Shown here in pieces: positions 6,564-15,736 of a stretch of DNA of 20,149 nt. Within the stretch, counting starts at the first letter, position 1. Every line of letters begins with the position of its first letter. Origin of the DNA: a virus. A program made the position numbers and the translations under genes. The stretch spans positions 1 to 20,149 of IMG/VR virus record IMGVR_UViG_3300044225_002299; one strand, given 5' to 3'. Below the pieces are notes generated by a model. It worked only from the letters and a program-made list of their open reading frames with translations, ran no database searches and was not told the origin of the DNA.

Positions 6564-6727
6564 TAATTTAAAAAGAAGTTAAATGCTTCTAATTCCTCTT
6601 TTAGTTCTTGTTGAAAGGTAGTATTTAATTTTTGAATTACACCATCTAAGTCTCTAGTTTGAGCTTCTGCTACAGTATAATCATATTCCACACTAGGTCT
6701 TGTTAATACTTGTACTATTTTTGCCAT
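6563..6727 (-). CDS. Small conserved-context protein between nozzle and internal protein genes
   Basis: A 54-residue protein, MAKIVQVLTRPSVEYDYTV through EAFNFFLN. It is supported by one-base TAATG overlaps at both ends and by a GAAGAAG stretch before its ATG, which would be hard to explain by chance. The C-terminal half (residues 20-48, TRDLDGVIQKLNTTFQQEL) should form an amphipathic, acidic helix, perhaps a coiled coil. Family and function are unknown. Position suggests a minor virion or assembly factor. Confidence 0.7.
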   Translation of the reverse strand: MAKIVQVLTRPSVEYDYTVAEAQTRDLDGVIQKLNTTFQQELKEELEAFNFFLN

Positions 6728-8934
6728 TATCTTCTTCCGTCTGGTTGTATATCTAATCTAAATGTTCCTAACTTCCAGGTTTGACTAGCTCCTGTATTTG
6801 CAACTTTTAATGATACTGCTCTAGCTCTTGCACGTGTATCTACTTTTTGTGTAGATGACGTTACAGTAAAAGGGCCTAAAGCAGAACTAGCTTTTGTGTC
6901 ATTAGGAAAATTTCTTAATTCTAAAGTAACCTGTGCATTTCCTGTTTGAGATATAAAGTCAGGAATAAATCTTCTAATTTTCATTAAAAACTCTCCATCA
7001 CCTCTAAGATCAGCTGTTCCTGTTGTAGCTCCTCTAGCTATTCTTTGAGTAATATCAAAATCACCAGAGGATATATTTGAAGTTATGGCGGTTATAGTTC
7101 CATTTCTATTTTGGTCTGTCCCTGTTTCGTGTTCATAGTATGATGTTCTACCCTCAGTGTTTCCTACAACATCAAAAGATGTATCTGTCCCTGCATCATA
7201 TTCTAAAGCATGTGGTCTTGGAAAGACGGCTGAGTCTTGCCACATAGTTCTTGAAAGAGATCCTATAGTCCATACAGGTCTTTTTGGTGACGAGTCAAAA
7301 TAATTATATGCAACCATTCTATTAACAACAGTGGATGTAGCTTGTGGATAAAACCACATAACTTCACCAAACAAATTATTTAATCCTGCTGAAATCATTT
7401 GATTACCTGATTCCATATTTATGTCATCAAACACAAAGTCTTCAACTAAACATGGTAGTGATTCTAATTTACCTGCATATCTAAAGAAGCCATTCTCTGA
7501 CATCCAATACGCAGCACCATCAACTTCTACACATGCATTTTGACCTGCTAATCCACAGTTAGTTCCTACTTGTGAAAAGGCAAATGTAAAAGGTGATCCA
7601 ACAAAACGTTGTGTAAATAATGCTGTATCAGTCCAAACATATATTGCATCTCTACCTCTAATAGCTCCTCTGATCTGTGATCCATCAGCTAGTCTTTGTG
7701 TACCGGCTGTATTGGTTGCTGTAGGTGTATATGTATTTATATCTTCTTGATCTGAGAATCTAATAAACATATCGTCTTGAGTTGCTTTACTACCAATTGT
7801 TGTTTCTGTTCCATAAAATACTAAGTGACGATCTGGTGTAGATACCACCATGTGTCTTGATGCTGTAGGTGCTCCGGATATAATTGTACATCTTGTTTCT
7901 GTTGCGTTTGATAAAGAAGAGTCCCACTCAAATACCTCACCATCGTGTATTAAACAAATTGCTTTATCACCAAAATTATCTAGTGACCACATACCTGGTT
8001 CTAATACTAAGTCACCTGACGCTGCCTCACCCCAAGCAACATAGTCTGTGCTATTTTTAACTGAGGCACCATCACTATGTGAAGATCGCGTTGAGTTTCT
8101 AACAGCTCTAGTAATACCTGTTAATGTAGTGCCACCTGTAATACCCGTGTAAGATATCTCTTCATTTCCCACTTGAATAAAATTAGTGCCAGAGCTTGGA
8201 AACTGTGTAGCGTCTGCTAAGACGATGGATGTTCCAGACCCACCTGTGCCTGCAGTATCATCTGATAATGCTCCATTTAAAGTTGTTGTTACCGGGTTTG
8301 AAGCTTCTCCACCCCAAGATCCAAGACCCCAACCAAAACCTTTTTCTTGAACTGCAGATCCAACAGGAAAATAATGCCTTACTCTAATACCACCAGATGT
8401 TGTTGCACCAGATCCTGTTTCATTTGATGGCATTGTAATTGTTATCGTTTCTGTTGTTGGAACAGAGGTCACCATAAATTTTTTATCATCAAAGTCTGAT
8501 GCTGAAAAATTAGATCCTGTAATTGTCGTAAAATTATCTAATAAGATAATATCTTGTGGATTAATACCATGACCTGTTGAGAAAGTTATTGTAACAGTTG
8601 GTGATCCGTTGGTCGTGGTAAACGCACTAGTAAGCGTTGTTGTAGATTTGATAGGATGTATGTCATAGAATACACCTCCAGAAAAAGCATACAAAATTCT
8701 GTTCGTGCCAATAATAGCGTATCTTCTACCTAAACTGTTAACAAAATGATGAAGACCCCGTCCAGCTCCCGTAAGTTCATTTTCATTTACAGTGCCTAAT
8801 TGATTCCATCCCCCTATTTTTTCAGGAGATCCATATCTAAATCTAACATTATCGCAGTCAACCCACTGTCCTTCTGCTGTGGTTTCTGAGATTTGTTTAT
8901 TAATGCCCGGTTGAAATCCTATTTTTTGTAGCAT
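6727..8934 (-). CDS. Podovirus tail nozzle / hub (stabilisation) protein
   Basis: A 735-residue protein. The opening QPGINKQISETTAEGQWVDC and FRYGSPEKIGGW are typical of the large beta-propeller-like tail hub or nozzle proteins of short-tailed phages, related in role to P22 gp10 and the SU10 nozzle, which form the tail tube under the adaptor. Two inserted beta domains are visible: residues 104-182 (FTTTNGSPTVTITF, HG, TITITM, ATTSGG) and residues 215-298 (FIQVGNEEISYTGITGG then RAVRNSTRSSHSDGA). Residues 300-735 contain repeated beta blades (LVFYGTETTIGS, YWMSENGFFRY, MWFYPQATSTVVN). The gene follows the cassette after 15 bases and has no clear SD. Its TAA shares one base with the next ATG. 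Confidence 0.85.
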   Translation of the reverse strand: MLQKIGFQPGINKQISETTAEGQWVDCDNVRFRYGSPEKIGGWNQLGTVNENELTGAGRGLHHFVNSLGRRYAIIGTNRILYAFSGGVFYDIHPIKSTTTLTSAFTTTNGSPTVTITFSTGHGINPQDIILLDNFTTITGSNFSASDFDDKKFMVTSVPTTETITITMPSNETGSGATTSGGIRVRHYFPVGSAVQEKGFGWGLGSWGGEASNPVTTTLNGALSDDTAGTGGSGTSIVLADATQFPSSGTNFIQVGNEEISYTGITGGTTLTGITRAVRNSTRSSHSDGASVKNSTDYVAWGEAASGDLVLEPGMWSLDNFGDKAICLIHDGEVFEWDSSLSNATETRCTIISGAPTASRHMVVSTPDRHLVFYGTETTIGSKATQDDMFIRFSDQEDINTYTPTATNTAGTQRLADGSQIRGAIRGRDAIYVWTDTALFTQRFVGSPFTFAFSQVGTNCGLAGQNACVEVDGAAYWMSENGFFRYAGKLESLPCLVEDFVFDDINMESGNQMISAGLNNLFGEVMWFYPQATSTVVNRMVAYNYFDSSPKRPVWTIGSLSRTMWQDSAVFPRPHALEYDAGTDTSFDVVGNTEGRTSYYEHETGTDQNRNGTITAITSNISSGDFDITQRIARGATTGTADLRGDGEFLMKIRRFIPDFISQTGNAQVTLELRNFPNDTKASSALGPFTVTSSTQKVDTRARARAVSLKVANTGASQTWKLGTFRLDIQPDGRR

Positions 8935-8949
8935 ACCATTACAGTAAAA

Positions 8950-9471
8950 CTATTTTAAGAAAAAATCAAAAGAAATAATCCTTTTTTTAAACTTAAGCTT
9001 ATTTGGCTCAGTGTAATGTAATAGGAATTGAGGCACTATCATTATATCACCTTCCTCTACAGAGGGACTATAAGATCTAGTCATATCTTTTTCACTATTC
9101 CAAGGTTGTATGTAATTTGTTTTAGGAGAATCTTTTTTCATTCTTAAATAAATAATACCAGAATAACCTTGAGAACTGTGATTATGAGGAATGTGATAAT
9201 CACCTTTATTATAAGTTACAGACCAGGCGTGTTTAATATTTATTTCTTTATTATATCTAGCTTTTATTAAACTAAATTCATCTTTAAATATTTCTTTTAA
9301 TTGCCAAGTAAAATCAGCTTTGTTTCTATTACTATTAAAATTACTAATAGGCATCTCTGGATATTGTTTTAATATTTCTTCTATGTGTTCTCTTTTATTT
9401 TTAAAATTACAACATTTTATTTTAAAAAACTCTATTTTAAATGCAGGAGTTATTTCATATTTTATTTTCAT
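8950..9471 (-). CDS. 2OG-Fe(II) oxygenase family protein, HxH type
   Basis: A 173-residue protein and last gene of the cassette. YHIPHNHSSQGYSGIIYLR (92-110) carries the HxH motif H96-N-H98 followed by the SG-x-I-Y-L strand. VPQFLLHYTEP gives distal H152 and FKKRIISFDF gives R164. It resembles the HxH oxygenase at 11084-11716 and the PF13759 group, but the rest is divergent. The N-terminal 60 residues are Lys/Asn/Phe-rich with two adjacent Cys (20-21). As in the other HxH protein, the usual carboxylate ligand is missing at +2. A weak AGAAG precedes the ATG, which overlaps the upstream stop by 4 bases. A 15-base gap then leads to the nozzle gene, where the structural module resumes. Confidence 0.78.
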   Translation of the reverse strand: MKIKYEITPAFKIEFFKIKCCNFKNKREHIEEILKQYPEMPISNFNSNRNKADFTWQLKEIFKDEFSLIKARYNKEINIKHAWSVTYNKGDYHIPHNHSSQGYSGIIYLRMKKDSPKTNYIQPWNSEKDMTRSYSPSVEEGDIMIVPQFLLHYTEPNKLKFKKRIISFDFFLK

Positions 9472-10079
9472 TCACTTCTTTTAAACCATGAAGGTAATCC
9501 CAAATGTTTACGTCTATCAAATATGTTTTTATCAGCTCCCGGTGTTTTACGATTATTATAATGTAAAAAAACTTGCACACAATCTTTACCTCTAAAAACT
9601 TCTCGCCAGTGTTCTAAATCACATCCTTTATAAACTAACATATCTCCTGGATTTAAATCTACTTTAATTTTTTTATTATTTGATTTAAGGTATATGGGCC
9701 ATTTATCTCCACCTAAATTCATGGTGGTTGATATCTCACAACTAAATCTATCAGTATGTTTTTTTAATACGTCACCTTTTTTATATATTCTAGCGTATGA
9801 ATAAGAAGGGTTTAATTTTAATCCTGTTGCTTTTTCCATTATAGGTTGACATAACAACAATAAAGTTTCCATTGCTATATCAGAATAATGTGAATATGTA
9901 TTAGGCACTTGTGAATCGCTCCAAACACCCCATTCATTTGTAAAAGGCGATATGTATCCTGTATCAAAAAAAGTTCTAGCTACTTGTCTTTTTAATAAAA
10001 AATAGTTAGCAATAAATATTGCTAAATCTTCCTTAATAGCGTTTTTAATAATTGTGTATTTATTTTTTTTAAAACTCAT
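9468..10079 (-). CDS. Fe(II)/2OG oxygenase family protein
   Basis: A 203-residue protein. SYARIYKKGDVLKKHTDRFSCEIS contributes H108-T-D110, and CDLEHWREVFRGKDCVQVFLHYN supplies distal H157. No Arg sits 10-11 residues after H157; nearby candidates for the 2OG carboxylate are R163 or K165, with Q169 in the following strand. The LEHWREVF...QVFLHY pattern is familiar from a distinct subgroup of 2OG oxygenases, so the shift may be family-normal. NLGGDKWPIYL is the expected strand between the motifs. The C-terminal HLGLPSWFKR lies outside the core fold. It shares one base with the preceding stop, has no SD, and overlaps the next gene by 4 bases. Confidence 0.84.
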   Translation of the reverse strand: MSFKKNKYTIIKNAIKEDLAIFIANYFLLKRQVARTFFDTGYISPFTNEWGVWSDSQVPNTYSHYSDIAMETLLLLCQPIMEKATGLKLNPSYSYARIYKKGDVLKKHTDRFSCEISTTMNLGGDKWPIYLKSNNKKIKVDLNPGDMLVYKGCDLEHWREVFRGKDCVQVFLHYNNRKTPGADKNIFDRRKHLGLPSWFKRSE

Positions 10080-10564
10080 TAAAAATAATTAAAATTTATA
10101 GTTATTCTAATTTTACTATCACTACATCTAGAGCTTTTATGCTCTATACTTGGATCAAATAAAACAACTCTATTTTCTTTCGGTTCTACTGCTGTCTCTC
10201 CTTCTTTAAAATATGTGCAACCATTATTGTTGTTTATATACATAATACAACCTTTATGATTAAAAGGCAAATCATAATGAAAATTATTATAAGTCATTTT
10301 TTCAACTTTTGTGTGAAGATTGCCTTTTATTCTAATCAAACTTTTAATTTTTAATTTGTTTAACGTATTTACCCATAGATTAAAAAAGCTACTTTGTGGT
10401 TGAAGATCATTATAAAAATTGTGATTAAAATAAAATTTATTTTTTTCTGAAGGTTTAGATATATAGTCATGATAAAACCAAGGGAATTGATCACTCATTA
10501 AAGTATTTTGTATTTGACTAAATTCTTTTTTTGGTAAAAAATTATCTATTATTTTAATAGTCAT
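10079..10564 (-). CDS. Fe(II)/2OG oxygenase, small phage type
   Basis: A 161-residue protein with H96-Y-D98 (NNFHYDLPF), distal H142 (VVLFDPSIEHKSSR) and R153 (SKIRITINFN), the standard 2-His-1-carboxylate and 2OG-binding arrangement. IKIIDNFLPKKEF at the N-terminus matches the opening strand-helix of small oxygenases in T4-like marine phages, where they are common accessory genes of unknown substrate. At 161 residues it is near the lower size limit for the fold. The start overlaps the preceding stop by 4 bases without an SD, and the stop shares a base with the next ATG (TAATG). Predicted active. Confidence 0.83.
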   Translation of the reverse strand: MTIKIIDNFLPKKEFSQIQNTLMSDQFPWFYHDYISKPSEKNKFYFNHNFYNDLQPQSSFFNLWVNTLNKLKIKSLIRIKGNLHTKVEKMTYNNFHYDLPFNHKGCIMYINNNNGCTYFKEGETAVEPKENRVVLFDPSIEHKSSRCSDSKIRITINFNYF

Positions 10565-11094
10565 TTTACAATCATATTTAAATTAAATCTATGTTTGGAC
10601 TTAGTGCTAGCTATACCTTTGTGCCAAATATTACTGGGAAAAATTAAAGCTTGCCCCTCTATGCTAGGATAAAATTTATTATTTATTTCAGTCCCACCAT
10701 CATTAGTATGTAAATTATATATAATAGAATAATAACCATCTTCTAATTCATCTTTATGCAAAGCAGCTTTTGAAGAGGTGTCATAATAATTCCAATAAAG
10801 CCTGTATAAAGTTTGTATTGTTTTAAGTTTGTTTTTAATCGTATAAAAAATAATATCGCCATATAAATTAAGTGATGTGTTGATGTGAAGATTAAATTTT
10901 CTATCAAACGTTACATGAGAAAAACCTGCGTTATTTATATTTTTATCTAACATTTTATTTACATCTGTGTTTCGCTCTTCTCCTTCAAACCTTCCGGTGT
11001 CGCTTGCTATTTTCCATCTAGCTTCATTTATTAAAATTTGAATAATGTCTTTGTTGGTTTGAAAAGGAAGAATGTTATTAATTTTAGTTACCAT
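10561..11094 (-). CDS. Fe(II)/2OG oxygenase-fold protein
   Basis: A 177-residue protein starting MVTKINNILPF. A longer frame opens upstream at 11178, but that extension lies entirely within the preceding oxygenase gene and reads as its shadow, so I choose the ATG at 11094 with an 11-base overlap. Predicted cofactor residues are H113-K-D115, distal H158 (LIFPSNIWHKG) and R169 (KSKHRFNLN). NDGGTEI between the motifs fits the GGxL/T strand of prolyl-hydroxylase-like folds. The first 80 residues are Lys/Asn-rich and contain an RWKIASDTGRFEGEE segment of unknown role. The stop overlaps the next ATG by 4 bases. The cofactor set looks complete, so it could be active. No substrate can be inferred. 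Confidence 0.8.
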   Translation of the reverse strand: MVTKINNILPFQTNKDIIQILINEARWKIASDTGRFEGEERNTDVNKMLDKNINNAGFSHVTFDRKFNLHINTSLNLYGDIIFYTIKNKLKTIQTLYRLYWNYYDTSSKAALHKDELEDGYYSIIYNLHTNDGGTEINNKFYPSIEGQALIFPSNIWHKGIASTKSKHRFNLNMIVK

Positions 11095-11716
11095 CTTTAG
11101 CCATATCTTTAGGAACAGCTTGTATGTTCCAATGTATAAATCTAAATGGTTCAATGCCATGATCAACTGTAAATTCATGTTCTAAGTATCCTGGAAATAT
11201 TACAAGTGATCCTGGTTTTGGTTTAAAATGAATTATTTCTGAACCAGGAGCAAGTTGAACATTAGGTTTCATTTTTAATTTAGTTGCTCTTGCGCCTGTT
11301 CTTGGTTCATGAAACCTTGGATAAGAAGTTTTATCACTACACTTTAAAAAATAAAAACCTGATACATGTTGATTCCAATGTATATGTGCTGAGTGATGAC
11401 CACCACCTTTTTTAGCAAACTCTTGCACCCACATTTCACTAAATATAGTTGCGTATTGTGACATATCAAAACCTTGGTGATCTAAAAACTCCCATGATTT
11501 TTGTCCAATGTAATCTCTAAAACTTACAAAATCAGGATCTCTCGTCAATGGGGTTGAGTGATAAGATCTACCAAAGTCACCATTTTGTTTTATATATTCT
11601 TTTTCTCTTTTACGAGCATCCAAAATATATTTATTACTTGCTTTATTTAATGATTTAATAAATTCTGGTTTATCTTCTACCCAAATAGGTGTTTCAAAAT
11701 GATTAGTTGTATGCAT
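11084..11716 (-). CDS. 2OG-Fe(II) oxygenase family protein, HxH type
   Basis: A 210-residue protein that resembles the putative 2OG-Fe(II) oxygenase family PF13759: an N-terminal FETPIW, then SAHIHWNQHVSGFYFL (109-124), PRFHEPR, and SLVIFPGYLEHEF. Predicted iron ligands are H111 and distal H180, with R192 (FRFIHWN) for 2OG. Position +2 after H111 is His113, not Asp/Glu, so the classical carboxylate ligand is absent or supplied elsewhere; the HxH pattern is, as I recall, normal for this group. Its start lies 14 bases inside the halogenase gene, and its end overlaps the next gene by 11 bases, suggesting co-expression with the halogenase. Length is typical of phage members. The substrate is unknown. 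Confidence 0.85.
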   Translation of the reverse strand: MHTTNHFETPIWVEDKPEFIKSLNKASNKYILDARKREKEYIKQNGDFGRSYHSTPLTRDPDFVSFRDYIGQKSWEFLDHQGFDMSQYATIFSEMWVQEFAKKGGGHHSAHIHWNQHVSGFYFLKCSDKTSYPRFHEPRTGARATKLKMKPNVQLAPGSEIIHFKPKPGSLVIFPGYLEHEFTVDHGIEPFRFIHWNIQAVPKDMAKDGN

Positions 11717-13121
11717 TTTTTATATACTTCTTATGACTAATTGTTTCTACTTTATTATTCCATTCTTTTTGTTTTTTAATTCTGTCGTATAAATAATTTT
11801 TATACTTTTTTGACAAATTATCAAATTCTTTTTTTATTAATTTTACATCAAATAAATTTAATTCTTTTAATATTATTGAAAAATTTTCAGACTTAAATAA
11901 ATTATATTCACAGTTAAAATCCTCTTTTATTGGAAGCCTCTTTTTCCATGTTTTTAAATTATGTTTTAAACTTTCGGGTAAGTTACATTTATAATCTTTC
12001 CAAAATTTACTATCTCTTTTATTTGTTAAATAATGTAATAAAACAAAGTCTCTAATATTTTCTACAATTATTTTAAATTTTTTATTGTATAAATCTATAT
12101 CTGTTTGATTATAATTTATTATTAAATGCATCAAAATAAAAGCTTGTTGTATAGATGTCCCTATAGAAGATGCTTCTAAAGGTTCAATAAAACTAGAACT
12201 TAAACCTGTTGCAACACAATTTCCTATCCAGGCTTTATCTAAAGCACCTGCTTCAAATTTTATATTTTTCCCTATTTTTATTTTTTGACCTAAATAATCT
12301 TCACACTCTTGTTTTGCTTGATCTGCATTTATGTATTTATTATTAAAAACATAACCATTTCCCCAACGTCCATTTGTTGGTATTCTCCACATCCAACCCG
12401 AAGACATTGCCTTAGCTGTCGTGTAAGGTGTGTATTCTAATGTATCTTCTGTAGGAAAAGCTATGGCTTCGTTCATAGGTAAATATTTTTTGTAAGATTT
12501 CCATTTAGCACCTAATTTAGAAATCAATAATTTTTTAAAACCTGTGCTATCGATATAAAAATCATATTTGTATTTTTTATTTTTACTTTCAATACTTTGT
12601 ATATTATTTTGTTTTATGTTTACTTTAATAATTTTATCTGTGTAAATATTAATATTATTTGTCTTACATTTTTTAAGTAAAAATTTATTTAATTTAAAAG
12701 TATCAAAATGATATTGATTTGTTGGATCAGATGGAGTTACTAAATTATTCCATGCATGAGGATCTGTATATTCTTTTGATCTTAATTTATTAGCTACGGC
12801 AAAAGCATATCCCCCTAAATAATGAGCAAATTTTAAATTAGCAAAAGATCCATACGTGTTATGATAATAATCGTGATCAGTCCAATTTTTAAACATAATG
12901 CCTCCTTTCATAGTAGCGCCAGTTTCTTTAATTAATTCTTCTTCACTAATATTAGTAAATTTCATAAAATCAGACCAGTGTTCGGTGGTTCCTTCTCCAA
13001 CACCTATGATACCTATTTCGTCAGATTTTATTATATCTATTTGAATAAATTCAAACCTTGATTTAAGAATTAAAGCAGTTATTAAACCAGCCGTGCCTCC
13101 ACCTACAATTAATACTTTCAT
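11703..13121 (-). CDS. Flavin-dependent halogenase (tryptophan halogenase family)
   Basis: A 472-residue protein. It has an N-terminal FAD-binding GxGxxG (VGGGTAG, residues 6-12), the predicted catalytic Lys at K72 (TGATMKGGIMFKNW), the halogenase signature W-x-W-x-I-P (GWMWRIP, residues 242-248) and FIEPLEAS (311-318), whose E316 matches the catalytic Glu of PrnA-type enzymes. The Ser that follows this Glu in PrnA is Ala317 here. Such enzymes use FADH2, O2 and halide to form hypohalous acid, which is guided to Lys for electrophilic halogenation. They need a flavin reductase, and none is in this window. A cyanophage halogenase (VirX1) that prefers iodide is a precedent for viral members. The start overlaps the preceding stop by 4 bases; the 3' end overlaps the next gene by 14. 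Residue equivalences are from memory of the family. Confidence 0.92.
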   Translation of the reverse strand: MKVLIVGGGTAGLITALILKSRFEFIQIDIIKSDEIGIIGVGEGTTEHWSDFMKFTNISEEELIKETGATMKGGIMFKNWTDHDYYHNTYGSFANLKFAHYLGGYAFAVANKLRSKEYTDPHAWNNLVTPSDPTNQYHFDTFKLNKFLLKKCKTNNINIYTDKIIKVNIKQNNIQSIESKNKKYKYDFYIDSTGFKKLLISKLGAKWKSYKKYLPMNEAIAFPTEDTLEYTPYTTAKAMSSGWMWRIPTNGRWGNGYVFNNKYINADQAKQECEDYLGQKIKIGKNIKFEAGALDKAWIGNCVATGLSSSFIEPLEASSIGTSIQQAFILMHLIINYNQTDIDLYNKKFKIIVENIRDFVLLHYLTNKRDSKFWKDYKCNLPESLKHNLKTWKKRLPIKEDFNCEYNLFKSENFSIILKELNLFDVKLIKKEFDNLSKKYKNYLYDRIKKQKEWNNKVETISHKKYIKNAYN

Positions 13122-13729
13122 TTAAATGGTTTTCCCAAATTCCAAGTAACTAAACTATATCTAGTTCCAGAAGTTACAGGTCTTACTCGGTGCCAAAGGT
13201 GTGATGGAAAAACAATAATAGAACCTTTAGTTAATATTTCTTTTGCTTGAACTACGTGTTTTTTTTCCTCTCTTTTATTAGGCTCATAATTTCTAAAATC
13301 AAATTCTAATTCACCACCCTCATATTCAGATCCATCTGTTAATTGACATGTAATAGATAACTTTCTAACTTTACCACATAACAAAGGATGATTTGTATCA
13401 TCATAAGGTTTTTCCCAACTATCACAATGCCAATCATAATATTGACCAATTTTATATTTAGTAAATTGAATATCTTCTGAACAGTCCCAATCAAAATTCC
13501 AACCTGCGTTTTCATTTGCTCTATGAATATATGGATGTATTTCTTTATATACCCAAGGATCAGTTATCCAAGCAACGTCAGAATTTCTTGGTATAAATTT
13601 TAAATGTTGATTTTTGTTTCCGGTGCGTGCTTTAAACTCTTTAAGACTTAAACCATATCTTATTACTTCATCACAAAATCTAGATGACAACGCTGATTTA
13701 AAAACCCAATATTTATTTTCTAAATTCAT
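13118..13729 (-). CDS. Fe(II)/2OG oxygenase, prolyl-4-hydroxylase/PKHD-like
   Basis: A 203-residue protein with a complete set of predicted cofactor residues: H101-C-D103 (YYDWHCDSW), distal H180 in FPSHLWHRV and 2OG-binding R190 (TSGTRYSLVTW). The core matches small phage and bacterial prolyl-4-hydroxylase-like enzymes that hydroxylate protein side chains or small molecules with O2 and 2OG, releasing succinate and CO2. The EGGELEF stretch between the iron motifs is typical of the PKHD-type group. Length is normal for a single-domain member. It abuts the preceding gene and overlaps the halogenase gene by 4 bases (ATGA), with no SD at its own start. Substrate is unknown. It is the best candidate for an active 2OG enzyme here. 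Confidence 0.88.
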   Translation of the reverse strand: MNLENKYWVFKSALSSRFCDEVIRYGLSLKEFKARTGNKNQHLKFIPRNSDVAWITDPWVYKEIHPYIHRANENAGWNFDWDCSEDIQFTKYKIGQYYDWHCDSWEKPYDDTNHPLLCGKVRKLSITCQLTDGSEYEGGELEFDFRNYEPNKREEKKHVVQAKEILTKGSIIVFPSHLWHRVRPVTSGTRYSLVTWNLGKPFK

Positions 13730-14245
13730 TTATAAAATTTTATAAGTTATACAATGTATAAAGTTTGATTTTTCTTTTTGTTTATTTTCTATGTAATACA
13801 TACATGAGGAAGGAAACATAATAAATTTATTATTTTCTAAAGTTATATTCCATTGTTTATCTAAATATTTATTATCTTTATATTTTACTCTTACAGTGCA
13901 ATCTTCTGCTCTAACACCATATAATAAGATATAATCAGGTGATTTTAATACGTCATCATAATCAACATGACAAAAAGGTTTTGAAGTTTCTAATGGATTA
14001 TACTCAGTTCCCCAGCTTTTAATATTTTCTACAACTAAATCATATTCAACAAAACAGTGTTCTATAATATATGAATTAAGAATATCAAAAGGTGGACAAG
14101 GTATAAAATCTTGGTTTTTTGTATCAGCATAAACTTCATGAAGTAATAATTGATCTCTATCTATTTTCCAATTTGATGGTAATTTTATATCACCATAATA
14201 TAGAGATGTTTCACTTAATACTTTCTTATTAATTAATTTTTTCAT
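13730..14245 (-). CDS. Degenerate 2OG-oxygenase-like protein
   Basis: A 171-residue protein. I place it in the double-stranded beta-helix 2OG oxygenase superfamily by comparison with its downstream neighbour. FCHVDYDD (92-98) matches the HxD metal-binding step (H93, D95), and FIMFPSSCMYYI (141-152) aligns with IIVFPSHLWHRV. In that alignment the distal metal His is replaced by Tyr150, and the 2OG-binding Arg position falls on K159/S160. If the alignment holds, two of the usual iron/cosubstrate contacts are lost, suggesting a non-catalytic or altered member. It opens the AT-rich cassette, starts inside a hairpin, has no SD, and its stop abuts the next ATG (TAAATG). The family call is tentative. 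The N-terminal 80 residues are unrecognised. Confidence 0.62.
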   Translation of the reverse strand: MKKLINKKVLSETSLYYGDIKLPSNWKIDRDQLLLHEVYADTKNQDFIPCPPFDILNSYIIEHCFVEYDLVVENIKSWGTEYNPLETSKPFCHVDYDDVLKSPDYILLYGVRAEDCTVRVKYKDNKYLDKQWNITLENNKFIMFPSSCMYYIENKQKEKSNFIHCITYKIL

Positions 14246-14268: not shown

Positions 14269-14736
14269 TTATACACCGTTATTAACTATTACCCATCCTG
14301 TATTGTTATCGGCTTGATAAGCATCCTCATCCCACTTATGAATCCAATCATGAGTTTGAGCAGCATTCTGGCTTTCCTGTGTCGTATCTAATTCTGGTTT
14401 GTTATTGTGGGGTGCATCCCAATCTGCGGTTGTAGTATTTTTAACCCAACTTGGATAAGGTTGTACGGGCCAAAATATTTGATTAGCCTCATCCCACGTG
14501 CTTCCTTTACCTGCAAAATTTCCTCTAAAAGGAGTTCCACCTAAAAAGTGTTTATTACGTAATGTGTTGTAAGAAGTTTGAATCCATTTATCAGCAGGCC
14601 AATTAGCAATTTTTTGTAAAAATGCTTGACCAATGCTTTCTGTTTCTACTCCTTCACTATTACTTGTGTCTTTATCAGCTACTACAAGAACTGTTAGAAC
14701 AACATTGTTATCATTTATTTTTGCAAAATGTGCCAT
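14269..14736 (-). CDS. Trp-rich structural protein of unknown function (marine phage type)
   Basis: A 155-residue protein beginning MAHFAKINDNNVVLTVLVV, an opening I recognise from small proteins of cyanophages and other marine phages near tail fibre genes; none has a function known to me. It has an N-terminal beta strand pair, then WPADKWIQTSYNT, FLGGTPFRGNFAGKGSTWDE and WPVQPYPSWVKN. Trp, Pro and Asn are abundant and the protein is acidic. It starts 4 bases after the glycine-rich gene's stop with no clear SD, so it is probably translated by coupling. It is the last gene before the oxidative cassette. A small fibre-associated or capping protein is plausible, from context only. Confidence 0.75.
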   Translation of the reverse strand: MAHFAKINDNNVVLTVLVVADKDTSNSEGVETESIGQAFLQKIANWPADKWIQTSYNTLRNKHFLGGTPFRGNFAGKGSTWDEANQIFWPVQPYPSWVKNTTTADWDAPHNNKPELDTTQESQNAAQTHDWIHKWDEDAYQADNNTGWVIVNNGV

Positions 14737-14740
14737 ATGT

Positions 14741-15736
14741 TTATGCTTTAAATTGATACCTCACTATTACAACACCTGATCCACCGGTTACGGGTCCTTG
14801 GTTTTCACCACCTCCCGCGCCTCCGCCAGTATTAGCCGTTCCGCCCGAAGAAGAACTATTTCCTGAACCGCCGCCACCCACTCCGGGTTGAGCTCCTGGG
14901 TTTCCGCCGCCTCGTTGATCAGCGCCTCCTGCGCCTCCTCCTGCAAAATATCTTAAAGAACCATTTGGTCCTGGTGTTCCAAAACAAGAACTTGTTGTAA
15001 TAGCTGTGCCTTCGCCAGCTCCAGCCGCACCTCCTTGGTTACTTGAGGCTCCGCCGCCAGCCGCTCCTGCTCCGCCGCCGCCTCCACCAGCTCCATTGTG
15101 AGATCCGCCGGATCCAGGTCCTCCATTGTTTCCTTGACCTGGTGGACTTGCTGAACCCGGTGAACCTCCGCCACCGGCTCCTCCGCCTGATCCTCCATCT
15201 CGTTGATCAGGGTTATTAGTTGAGGCTGCTCCTCCGCCACCACCAGTTGAGGTTACACTAAATCCTGATGAATTACTTCCACGTTGTCCACATCCAGGGC
15301 CTCCAGGGCTTCCAGACCCTATAACTATGGGATAGCCTTGAACTGAAACAGGCACCGCCGATACTCCTGAACCATAAGGACTAGCTGTGTAACAACCAGA
15401 AGCTGCACCAGAAGAGGCTTTAAAACCTCCTGCTCCGCCGCCTCCAGATTTATGGTTTGCTGCACCGCCACCGCCAGCGATAATTAAATAGTCTACGTTA
15501 TTGTTAGCAGGCACCAGAGCTCTAGCTACACAAAAAGTTCCAGAGCTAGTAAAAATATGAATTTTATGAGATCCACATTCTATTACAGTGTTTCCTCCAG
15601 TTGCGCATATAAAATCTGTACAAACCCCACCAGCAGAACCAAATCCTAAAATTTGATAACCAAATGATTTACCTTTACGGGATTGTATGTCTTTTGTGTT
15701 CTTACCTATTGTAAGTTTATTTTTGATATCTCTCAT
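14741..15736 (-). CDS. Glycine-rich adhesin-like protein
   Basis: A 331-residue protein. Residues 1-80 are an ordinary N-terminal domain with several cysteines (C39, C44, C54, C69). VDYLIIAGGGG (81-91) begins a long glycine-rich region to about residue 315, dominated by GGGGAGG, GGPGSGG and GGGNPG runs, and the protein ends GVVIVRYQFKA. The VDYL-AGGGG start and VIVRY ending are hallmarks of a glycine-rich family frequent in marine phages. T-even-like phage adhesins show that such segments can form polyglycine-II helix bundles used for receptor binding; transfer of that fold here is inference. Its DNA is locally GC-rich from Gly codons. The start has a weak AAGG SD 8 bases upstream. Confidence 0.8.
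   Translation of the reverse strand: MRDIKNKLTIGKNTKDIQSRKGKSFGYQILGFGSAGGVCTDFICATGGNTVIECGSHKIHIFTSSGTFCVARALVPANNNVDYLIIAGGGGAANHKSGGGGAGGFKASSGAASGCYTASPYGSGVSAVPVSVQGYPIVIGSGSPGGPGCGQRGSNSSGFSVTSTGGGGGAASTNNPDQRDGGSGGGAGGGGSPGSASPPGQGNNGGPGSGGSHNGAGGGGGGAGAAGGGASSNQGGAAGAGEGTAITTSSCFGTPGPNGSLRYFAGGGAGGADQRGGGNPGAQPGVGGGGSGNSSSSGGTANTGGGAGGGENQGPVTGGSGVVIVRYQFKA

Follow-up and report, generated by a model that had tools for sequence, protein, structure and literature searches.

A halogenase and seven oxygenase-fold genes beside the fibre genes of a pelagiphage-type virus: a possible cassette for the modification of virion proteins

What use might a virus have for one flavin-dependent halogenase and seven genes of the 2-oxoglutarate (2OG) oxygenase fold, strung together on a single strand, and which molecules might they modify? 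The question is raised by IMG/VR virus record IMGVR_UViG_3300044225_002299, the entire 20,149 bases of which constitute the window analysed here, and in which such a set of eight overlapping open reading frames (ORFs; g1 to g5, hal, g7 and g8) occupies positions 8950-14245 of the minus strand. Some of the viruses that are most numerous in the ocean carry the gene block, in which an enzyme that adds chlorine or bromine accompanies several that add oxygen, and its oxygenase and 'ferrochelatase' genes are now treated as auxiliary metabolic genes (AMGs) acting on host metabolism. Combining gene families, folds and catalytic-residue conservation with genomic linkage, fusion, same-slot replacement, mobility and purifying selection, this analysis finds that the conserved unit is an island of oxygenases between fibre and tail genes, to which the halogenase is an optional addition. 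The reading favoured here, with an about even chance of being right, is that the genes form a mobile cassette that would hydroxylate and halogenate fibre-tip or associated virion proteins.

The halogenase and the oxygenases of the block

The number of genes, their strand and their junctions agree with the original prediction, which had been made from the sequence of the window. Genes g8 and g7 abut (13730/13729), g7 and hal share 4 bases (13118-13121), hal and g5 share 14 (11703-11716), g5 and g4 share 11 if the start of g4 is put at the ATG of 11094 (Met-29 in the longest ORF, whose own start is 11178), g4 and g3 share 4 (10561-10564), g3 and g2 share one (10079), and g2 and g1 share 4 (9468-9471). 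The block lies within a run of structural genes on the same strand, and its G+C (guanine plus cytosine) content is 25-28 %, compared with approximately 30-46 % in the flanks. Because the same gap is found across loci anchored on the adjoining tail-type gene t735 (means of 28.6 % for oxygenases and 27.0 % for halogenases, versus 37.2 % for t735 and 47.4 % for the fibre gene g10), low G+C is a general property of these gene families. All of the block or, in incomplete contigs, part of it is also present on the loci L002-L007, L010 and L011, and this recurrence, together with the purifying selection described below, argues that the block is not a chance assembly.

Genes were assigned by profile searches of Pfam and PHROGs, by iterated profiles, and by AlphaFold models of g2 and g8 that were compared with known structures in Foldseek, the iterated profiles and structure prediction taking the place of profile-profile comparison of shallow alignments. 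By every sequence criterion tested, hal (11703-13121) is predicted to encode a flavin-dependent halogenase of the tryptophan type, as had been proposed. It matches PF04820 over its full length (E=3e-95), its motifs are intact (GGGTAG at 7-12, K72, WMWRIP at 243-248 and EPLE at 313-316), K72 and E313/E316 are invariant in the halogenase alignment (A1), and its relatives in the PDB are PyrH, PrnA, RebH and VirX1. The ratio of non-synonymous to synonymous substitution (dN/dS) among the halogenases is 0.09-0.14, indicative of purifying selection.

The gene g2 (9468-10079) belongs to phrog_2954, a family that PHROGs, like many cyanophage records, labels 'ferrochelatase', and genes like it occur in more than 100 phage records. 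No relevant Pfam match was obtained for g2, and none to ferrochelatase. The AlphaFold model of g2 (predicted local distance difference test score, pLDDT, 95.7) has as its top Foldseek match a Pseudomonas prolyl hydroxylase that was solved with EF-Tu (4IW3, E=4.7e-10), with PHD-type prolyl hydroxylases next, and H108, D110 and H157 are kept in all 60 of the diverse family members aligned. On its modelled double-stranded beta-helix fold and its HxD...H residues, g2 is thus classed as an oxygenase. Ferrochelatase (HemH) identity was rejected on the missing Pfam match and on the 2OG oxygenases returned by the fold search, and the 'ferrochelatase' annotation of g2-type genes is very probably a long-propagated error.

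Among the other oxygenases, g7 (13118-13729), a 2OG-Fe(II) oxygenase resembling prolyl 4-hydroxylases (P4H) and PKHD hydroxylases, matches PF13640 above the cut-off (E=3e-14) and is assigned to phrog_61; its profile matches PKHD hydroxylases and one P4H in the PDB, and its HxD101...H...R motif is present in 363 of 372 relatives. Two genes are of the PF13759 type, with matches above the cut-off: g5 (11084-11716; HIH111-113...H...R; E=4e-14), which is assigned to phrog_81 and is a homologue of 3BVC, and g1 (8950-9471; HNH96-98...H...R; E=2e-9), which matches phrog_81 (E=4e-26). Both lack the canonical HxD and still match the PF13759 profile, and the HxH pattern is frequent among their relatives (56/127 g1-like and 202/369 g5-like proteins). 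Within phrog_274 are g3 (10079-10564; HYD96-98...H...R; E=6e-49), which also matches phrog_81 (E=3e-6) and, below the Pfam cut-off, PF13640 (E=0.002), and g4 (10561-11094; HKD...H...R; E=2e-18), whose Pfam match is likewise below the cut-off. In PHROGs phrog_274 is labelled 'endonuclease V'; as a DNA endonuclease V the stretch 10079-11178 was rejected, Pfam giving 2OG families only, albeit weakly, and the 2OG motif being present in 140 of 145 g3-like relatives, so that the label looks doubtful for g3 and g4. Iterated profiles seeded with g1 reach g3, g4, g5, g7 and g8, and those seeded with g4 reach g2. The six oxygenases originally credited with ligands do possess them, with the refinement that the canonical HxD...H...R is confined to three genes (g3, g4 and g7), g1 and g5 having HxH...H...R and g2 having HxD...H without the Arg/Lys.

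The seventh oxygenase-fold gene, g8 (13730-14245), had no relevant match in Pfam; its AlphaFold model (pLDDT 90.7) matches 3BVC, 2RG4 and PHD2 in Foldseek (best E=3.7e-6). The metal-ligand columns are not conserved among the 59 members aligned from a family of approximately 140: the position of His-93 is Asn, Gln, Glu or Asp in most relatives, and no distal His is conserved. Since the ligands are lost family-wide and the gene is under purifying selection (dN/dS 0.27-0.43), g8 is best regarded, within the limits of a modelled fold, as a conserved pseudo-oxygenase that would act, if at all, as a pseudo-enzyme. The prediction of seven such folds, one of them degenerate, is thereby sustained, the degeneracy of g8 being shared by its whole family and not a sign of decay in one copy.

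The oxygenase island, its fibre-gene neighbours and its halogenases

On shared structural genes and synteny, the source phage is assigned to the HTVC023P type of pelagiphage. On one side the island is bounded by t735 (6727-8934, minus strand), which encodes a tail/DNA-stabilization-like protein with homologues that are entered as 'stabilization protein' or 'putative tail protein', and whose best isolate matches include HTVC027P and HTVC023P (47-48 %) and 023Pt_psg01 (46 %). On the other side, and on the same strand, stand g9 (14269-14736), a Trp-rich member of phrog_7759 (9 W in 155 amino acids) that partners the Gly-rich fibre gene, and g10 (14741-15736), which encodes a fibre/adhesin-like protein with 31 % Gly that matches PF21722 (E=2e-13) and aligns with its relatives (A11). 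No PDB relative and no named relative was found for g9, which is a candidate substrate or fibre chaperone; g10 is likewise a candidate substrate. The best isolate matches of g7, g2, g8 and g9 include HTVC023P (44-67 %), in which the gene order is the same: four Gly-rich genes, g9, g8, g7, g5, g2, a tail gene, another oxygenase and t735.

The conserved unit is the oxygenase island, with the core g8-g7-g5-g2, between the g10-g9 fibre pair and the tail gene. Locus sets were compiled from the best 80 matches per scan, with gene labels from iterated profiles that may drift, notably for single 'g5' matches between g10 and g9 in distant loci. Within 37 t735-anchored contigs whose relevant flank extends for 4 kb or more, at least two oxygenases are in the island position in 34, whereas a halogenase is present in only three. 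Loci anchored on g7 contain g2 in 30 of 31 cases and g9/g10 within 4 kb in 30 of 31, and g2-anchored loci have g7 nearby in 23 of 23. Of 47 loci anchored on g9, 45 have g10 within 4 kb, 34 have one oxygenase or more nearby, 25 have two or more, and 2 have a halogenase. Within the same contigs, oxygenase density is 0.30 per kb within 4 kb of fibre genes and 0.10 per kb elsewhere, approximately a threefold difference. The layout of g10, optionally g9, and oxygenase recurs in HTVC023P, HTVC033P, HTVC008M, Mosig and S-SM1, and pelagiphage and cyanophage myoviruses have the same gene set adjoining Gly-rich fibre genes.

The halogenase is an optional cargo in this phage group, yet its linkage to oxygenases is real: among 45 diverse viral halogenases that had sufficient flanking sequence, 42 lie no more than 2 kb from an oxygenase. 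Permutation tests, which drew on few genomes, partly chosen for their halogenases, found that 12 of the 14 phage records with a PF21722 gene have one no more than 3 kb from a halogenase or an oxygenase (null 4.75, p ~1.5e-4), counted 58 oxygenases within 4 kb of halogenases in whole records against 18.7 expected (p ~5e-5), and counted 11 near the halogenases of six pooled isolates against 3.8 expected (p=0.034), the clustering in isolate genomes being significant when pooled but not when the genomes are taken singly. Because the myoviruses HTVC008M, Mosig, S-SM1 and Syn10 are among the 12 records, the association of fibre genes with oxygenases or halogenases crosses phage families.

Beyond proximity, a halogenase and a g2-type oxygenase are fused in a single frame in L046 (5446-7587, 713 amino acids) and in L062 (6432-8474, 680 amino acids). 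The oxygenase halves are 57 % alike and the halogenase halves fall in different well-supported clades, which implies that fusion, or domain exchange between fusions, occurred more than once. In L099 and L178, which carry the window's block less g3 with the other members 72-92 % identical, the halogenase slot is filled by an enzyme that is only 34 % identical and shares a clade with a Syn10 halogenase; the slot has thus been kept while the enzyme was exchanged. The block is also mobile, since in L007 (2853-9425) hal, g4, g3 and g2 are 94-95 % identical to their window counterparts despite a t735 with only 48 % identity, indicating that the cassette was recently passed from one phage backbone to another. 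Independent shuffling of the genes, which had been named in advance as telling against a linked pathway, is seen in part: order and content are shuffled in L006, L008, L033 and L044, while the linkage to the halogenase persists. Of the pathway first proposed, then, the functional link between halogenase and oxygenases stands, on the fusions, the slot replacement and the 42 linked halogenases. Its placing of the halogenase at the centre does not, because the island is nearly universal in the phage group and the halogenase rare.

As a separate observation, L087, L091, L092 and L094 (~1,400-20,500) carry approximately five halogenases among approximately ten 2OG oxygenases, adjoining up to three Gly-rich genes.

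Candidate substrates and competing explanations

In the favoured reading, a conserved core of 2OG-fold hydroxylases (g7, g5 and g2) with the ligand-less partner g8, supplemented by the variable cargo g1, g3 and g4 and, in a minority of phages, by a halogenase, would be made together with the late structural genes, the location among structural genes being suggestive of late expression. Halides, oxygen and 2OG are available inside an infected marine cell. No flavin reductase was found in the window, and reduced flavin would therefore have to be supplied by the host. The enzymes would hydroxylate, and where hal is present also halogenate, neighbouring virion proteins such as g10, g9 or other fibre parts, with the possible outcome that receptor binding is altered or diversified or the tip protected, and g8 might serve as a binding or docking partner. 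That the Gly-rich fibre genes are the stronger neighbours points to tailoring of the virion or of host recognition rather than to a small-molecule pathway, and the resemblance of g2 to the EF-Tu prolyl hydroxylase and of g7 to P4H/PKHD enzymes is consistent with protein substrates, as is the large, open active site of VirX1 (PMC8407142). A more specific version, in which an exchangeable halogenase and the 2OG hydroxylases modify the phage's own receptor-binding fibres, with g8 docking, to yield a virion-borne halogenated or hydroxylated adhesin, is more tentative and falls somewhat short of an even chance.

Several points weigh against modification of virion proteins. There is no Trp in g10, which was therefore rejected as a tryptophan substrate; if it is a substrate of the halogenase, another aromatic residue must be used. 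Trp enrichment of g9 was also rejected as a signature of the halogenase, since Trp makes up 5.2 % in loci with a halogenase and 5.3 % in loci without. In large cyanophages many 2OG genes are far from fibre genes, and the halogenases of S-PM2 and P-SSM2 have no nearby oxygenase cluster, that of S-PM2 having no oxygenase within 4 kb. The conserved Arg/Lys expected approximately 8-14 residues past the distal His, where g2 has C167 and Q169, is lacking; this basic residue usually anchors 2OG, so the 2OG dependence of g2 is an inference, although the invariant R97, R111 and R159 might provide the anchor instead. The fold matches of g2 also include small-molecule 2OG enzymes, some of them natural-product oxygenases, and the locus sets contain near-relatives and many fragments.

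Proximity to fibre genes could, moreover, reflect a mere hypervariable insertion hotspot, in which moron or auxiliary genes that are independent of one another and unrelated in their targets gather beside fibre genes by frequent recombination. The shuffled loci, the low G+C of both oxygenases and halogenases relative to t735 and g10, and the mobile block of L007 are in keeping with such a hotspot. However, the order g8-g7-g5-g2 is conserved, the same families are paired repeatedly in unrelated phages, and there are two halogenase-oxygenase fusions and a same-slot replacement of the halogenase, which together call for functional coupling and leave a hotspot of unrelated genes unlikely.

Tailoring of small molecules, the view taken in the original prediction, would consist of the successive modification of a host aromatic metabolite or the making of a halogenated natural product. 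The combination of a flavin-dependent halogenase with 2OG enzymes is typical of natural-product clusters, the oxygenases of the block are mutually divergent, and some of the fold matches noted above are natural-product oxygenases; g9 could conceivably be a precursor-like substrate. VirX1 accepts many small aromatics (PMC8407142). Yet the window has no scaffold-forming, transport or resistance gene and no precursor peptide, the core island is retained where the halogenase is missing (34/37 versus 3/37), and a tie to fibre genes across several phage backbones would be unexpected, so that this alternative too is improbable.

The enzymes might instead alter outer-membrane proteins, lipids or glycans of the host, so as to block superinfection or re-adsorption, the genes travelling with those for receptor binding. 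Co-location with fibre genes would then be read as receptor matching, the bacterial halogenase relatives in L424 adjoin a TonB receptor and a Cupin_8 protein, and marine-phage islands with Fe(II) oxygenases have earlier been placed under host recognition (PMC3909814). Late expression, as suggested by the site among structural genes, would nevertheless be poorly timed for superinfection exclusion, and the block holds no glycosyltransferase or lipid gene; host-surface modification is accordingly given little probability. Modification or repair of DNA or RNA bases is a very remote prospect, for although g3 and g4 carry the 'endonuclease V' label and a part in DNA repair has been suggested for cyanophage 2OG proteins (PMC3037559), g3 and g4 have 2OG motifs, a PDB sequence search with g2 gave only TET matches, which were not significant (TET/JBP E=0.27), and the published DNA-hypermodification genes of the group to which this phage belongs are located near polA and not at the block (PMC9599517).

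Relation to known systems

Modification of virion proteins would, if it holds, make these genes host-recognition equipment rather than metabolic genes, render the 'ferrochelatase' label in recent ecological papers wrong, and open the natural role of viral halogenases to direct testing. The closest precedent is the work of Wittmers et al. (2022) on co-located 2OG oxygenases and 'ferrochelatases', termed partner-AMGs, in HTVC023P-type phages (PMC9599517), joined in 2024 by a time series with the same PHROG labels in which phrog61 and phrog2954 are seasonally enriched (PMC11561400). These papers deal with phages of this group, with the families of g7 and g2 and with their co-location, whereas the passages found in them mention no halogenase and no link to Gly-rich fibre genes, and read g2 as a ferrochelatase. 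New here are the oxygenase fold of g2, the halogenase linkage and the fusions.

VirX1 of cyanophage Syn10 (PDB 6QGM; PMC8407142) belongs to the same enzyme family and has the same motifs as hal, and in Syn10/Syn9, too, halogenases (two) adjoin Gly-rich genes and several 2OG genes in a row. The window's halogenase, however, is in another clade than those of Syn10 and in the genome of a short-tailed pelagiphage, and the searched text on VirX1 does not treat its neighbourhood as a system (PMC8407142). The roles proposed so far for phage halogenases, e.g. antibiotic protection, are speculative (PMC2984593). With Pseudomonas putida PPHD, which acts on EF-Tu, and with PHD2 and the PKHD-type PiuC, g2 and g7 have the fold and metal ligands in common, but identity to protein prolyl hydroxylases is low (~14 %) and the 2OG-anchoring residue of g2 differs as described. 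Fe(II) oxygenases have been listed with the variable genes of metaviromic islands in marine phages, beside host-recognition genes, in work that describes neither a gene set nor a halogenase, a core order or a mechanism (PMC3909814). No open-access paper was found that links halogenase, oxygenases and Gly-rich fibre genes. A natural halogenase-oxygenase fusion would be a useful biocatalyst.

Two further loci concern halogenases in bacterial sequence. In L424 (4600-12054), from Thalassotalea, a TonB receptor, a halogenase, a Cupin_8 protein and a second halogenase stand in a row, a cellular parallel in which halogenases neighbour a surface receptor and a metal-dependent protein of the cupin fold; it differs in being cellular, in having Cupin_8 rather than PF13759 or PF13640, and in a halogenase only ~31 % identical. 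In L402 (6425-14959), a contig in a Porticoccaceae metagenome-assembled genome, two adjacent halogenases accompany at least three PF13759 oxygenases, and the stretch may be phage-derived.

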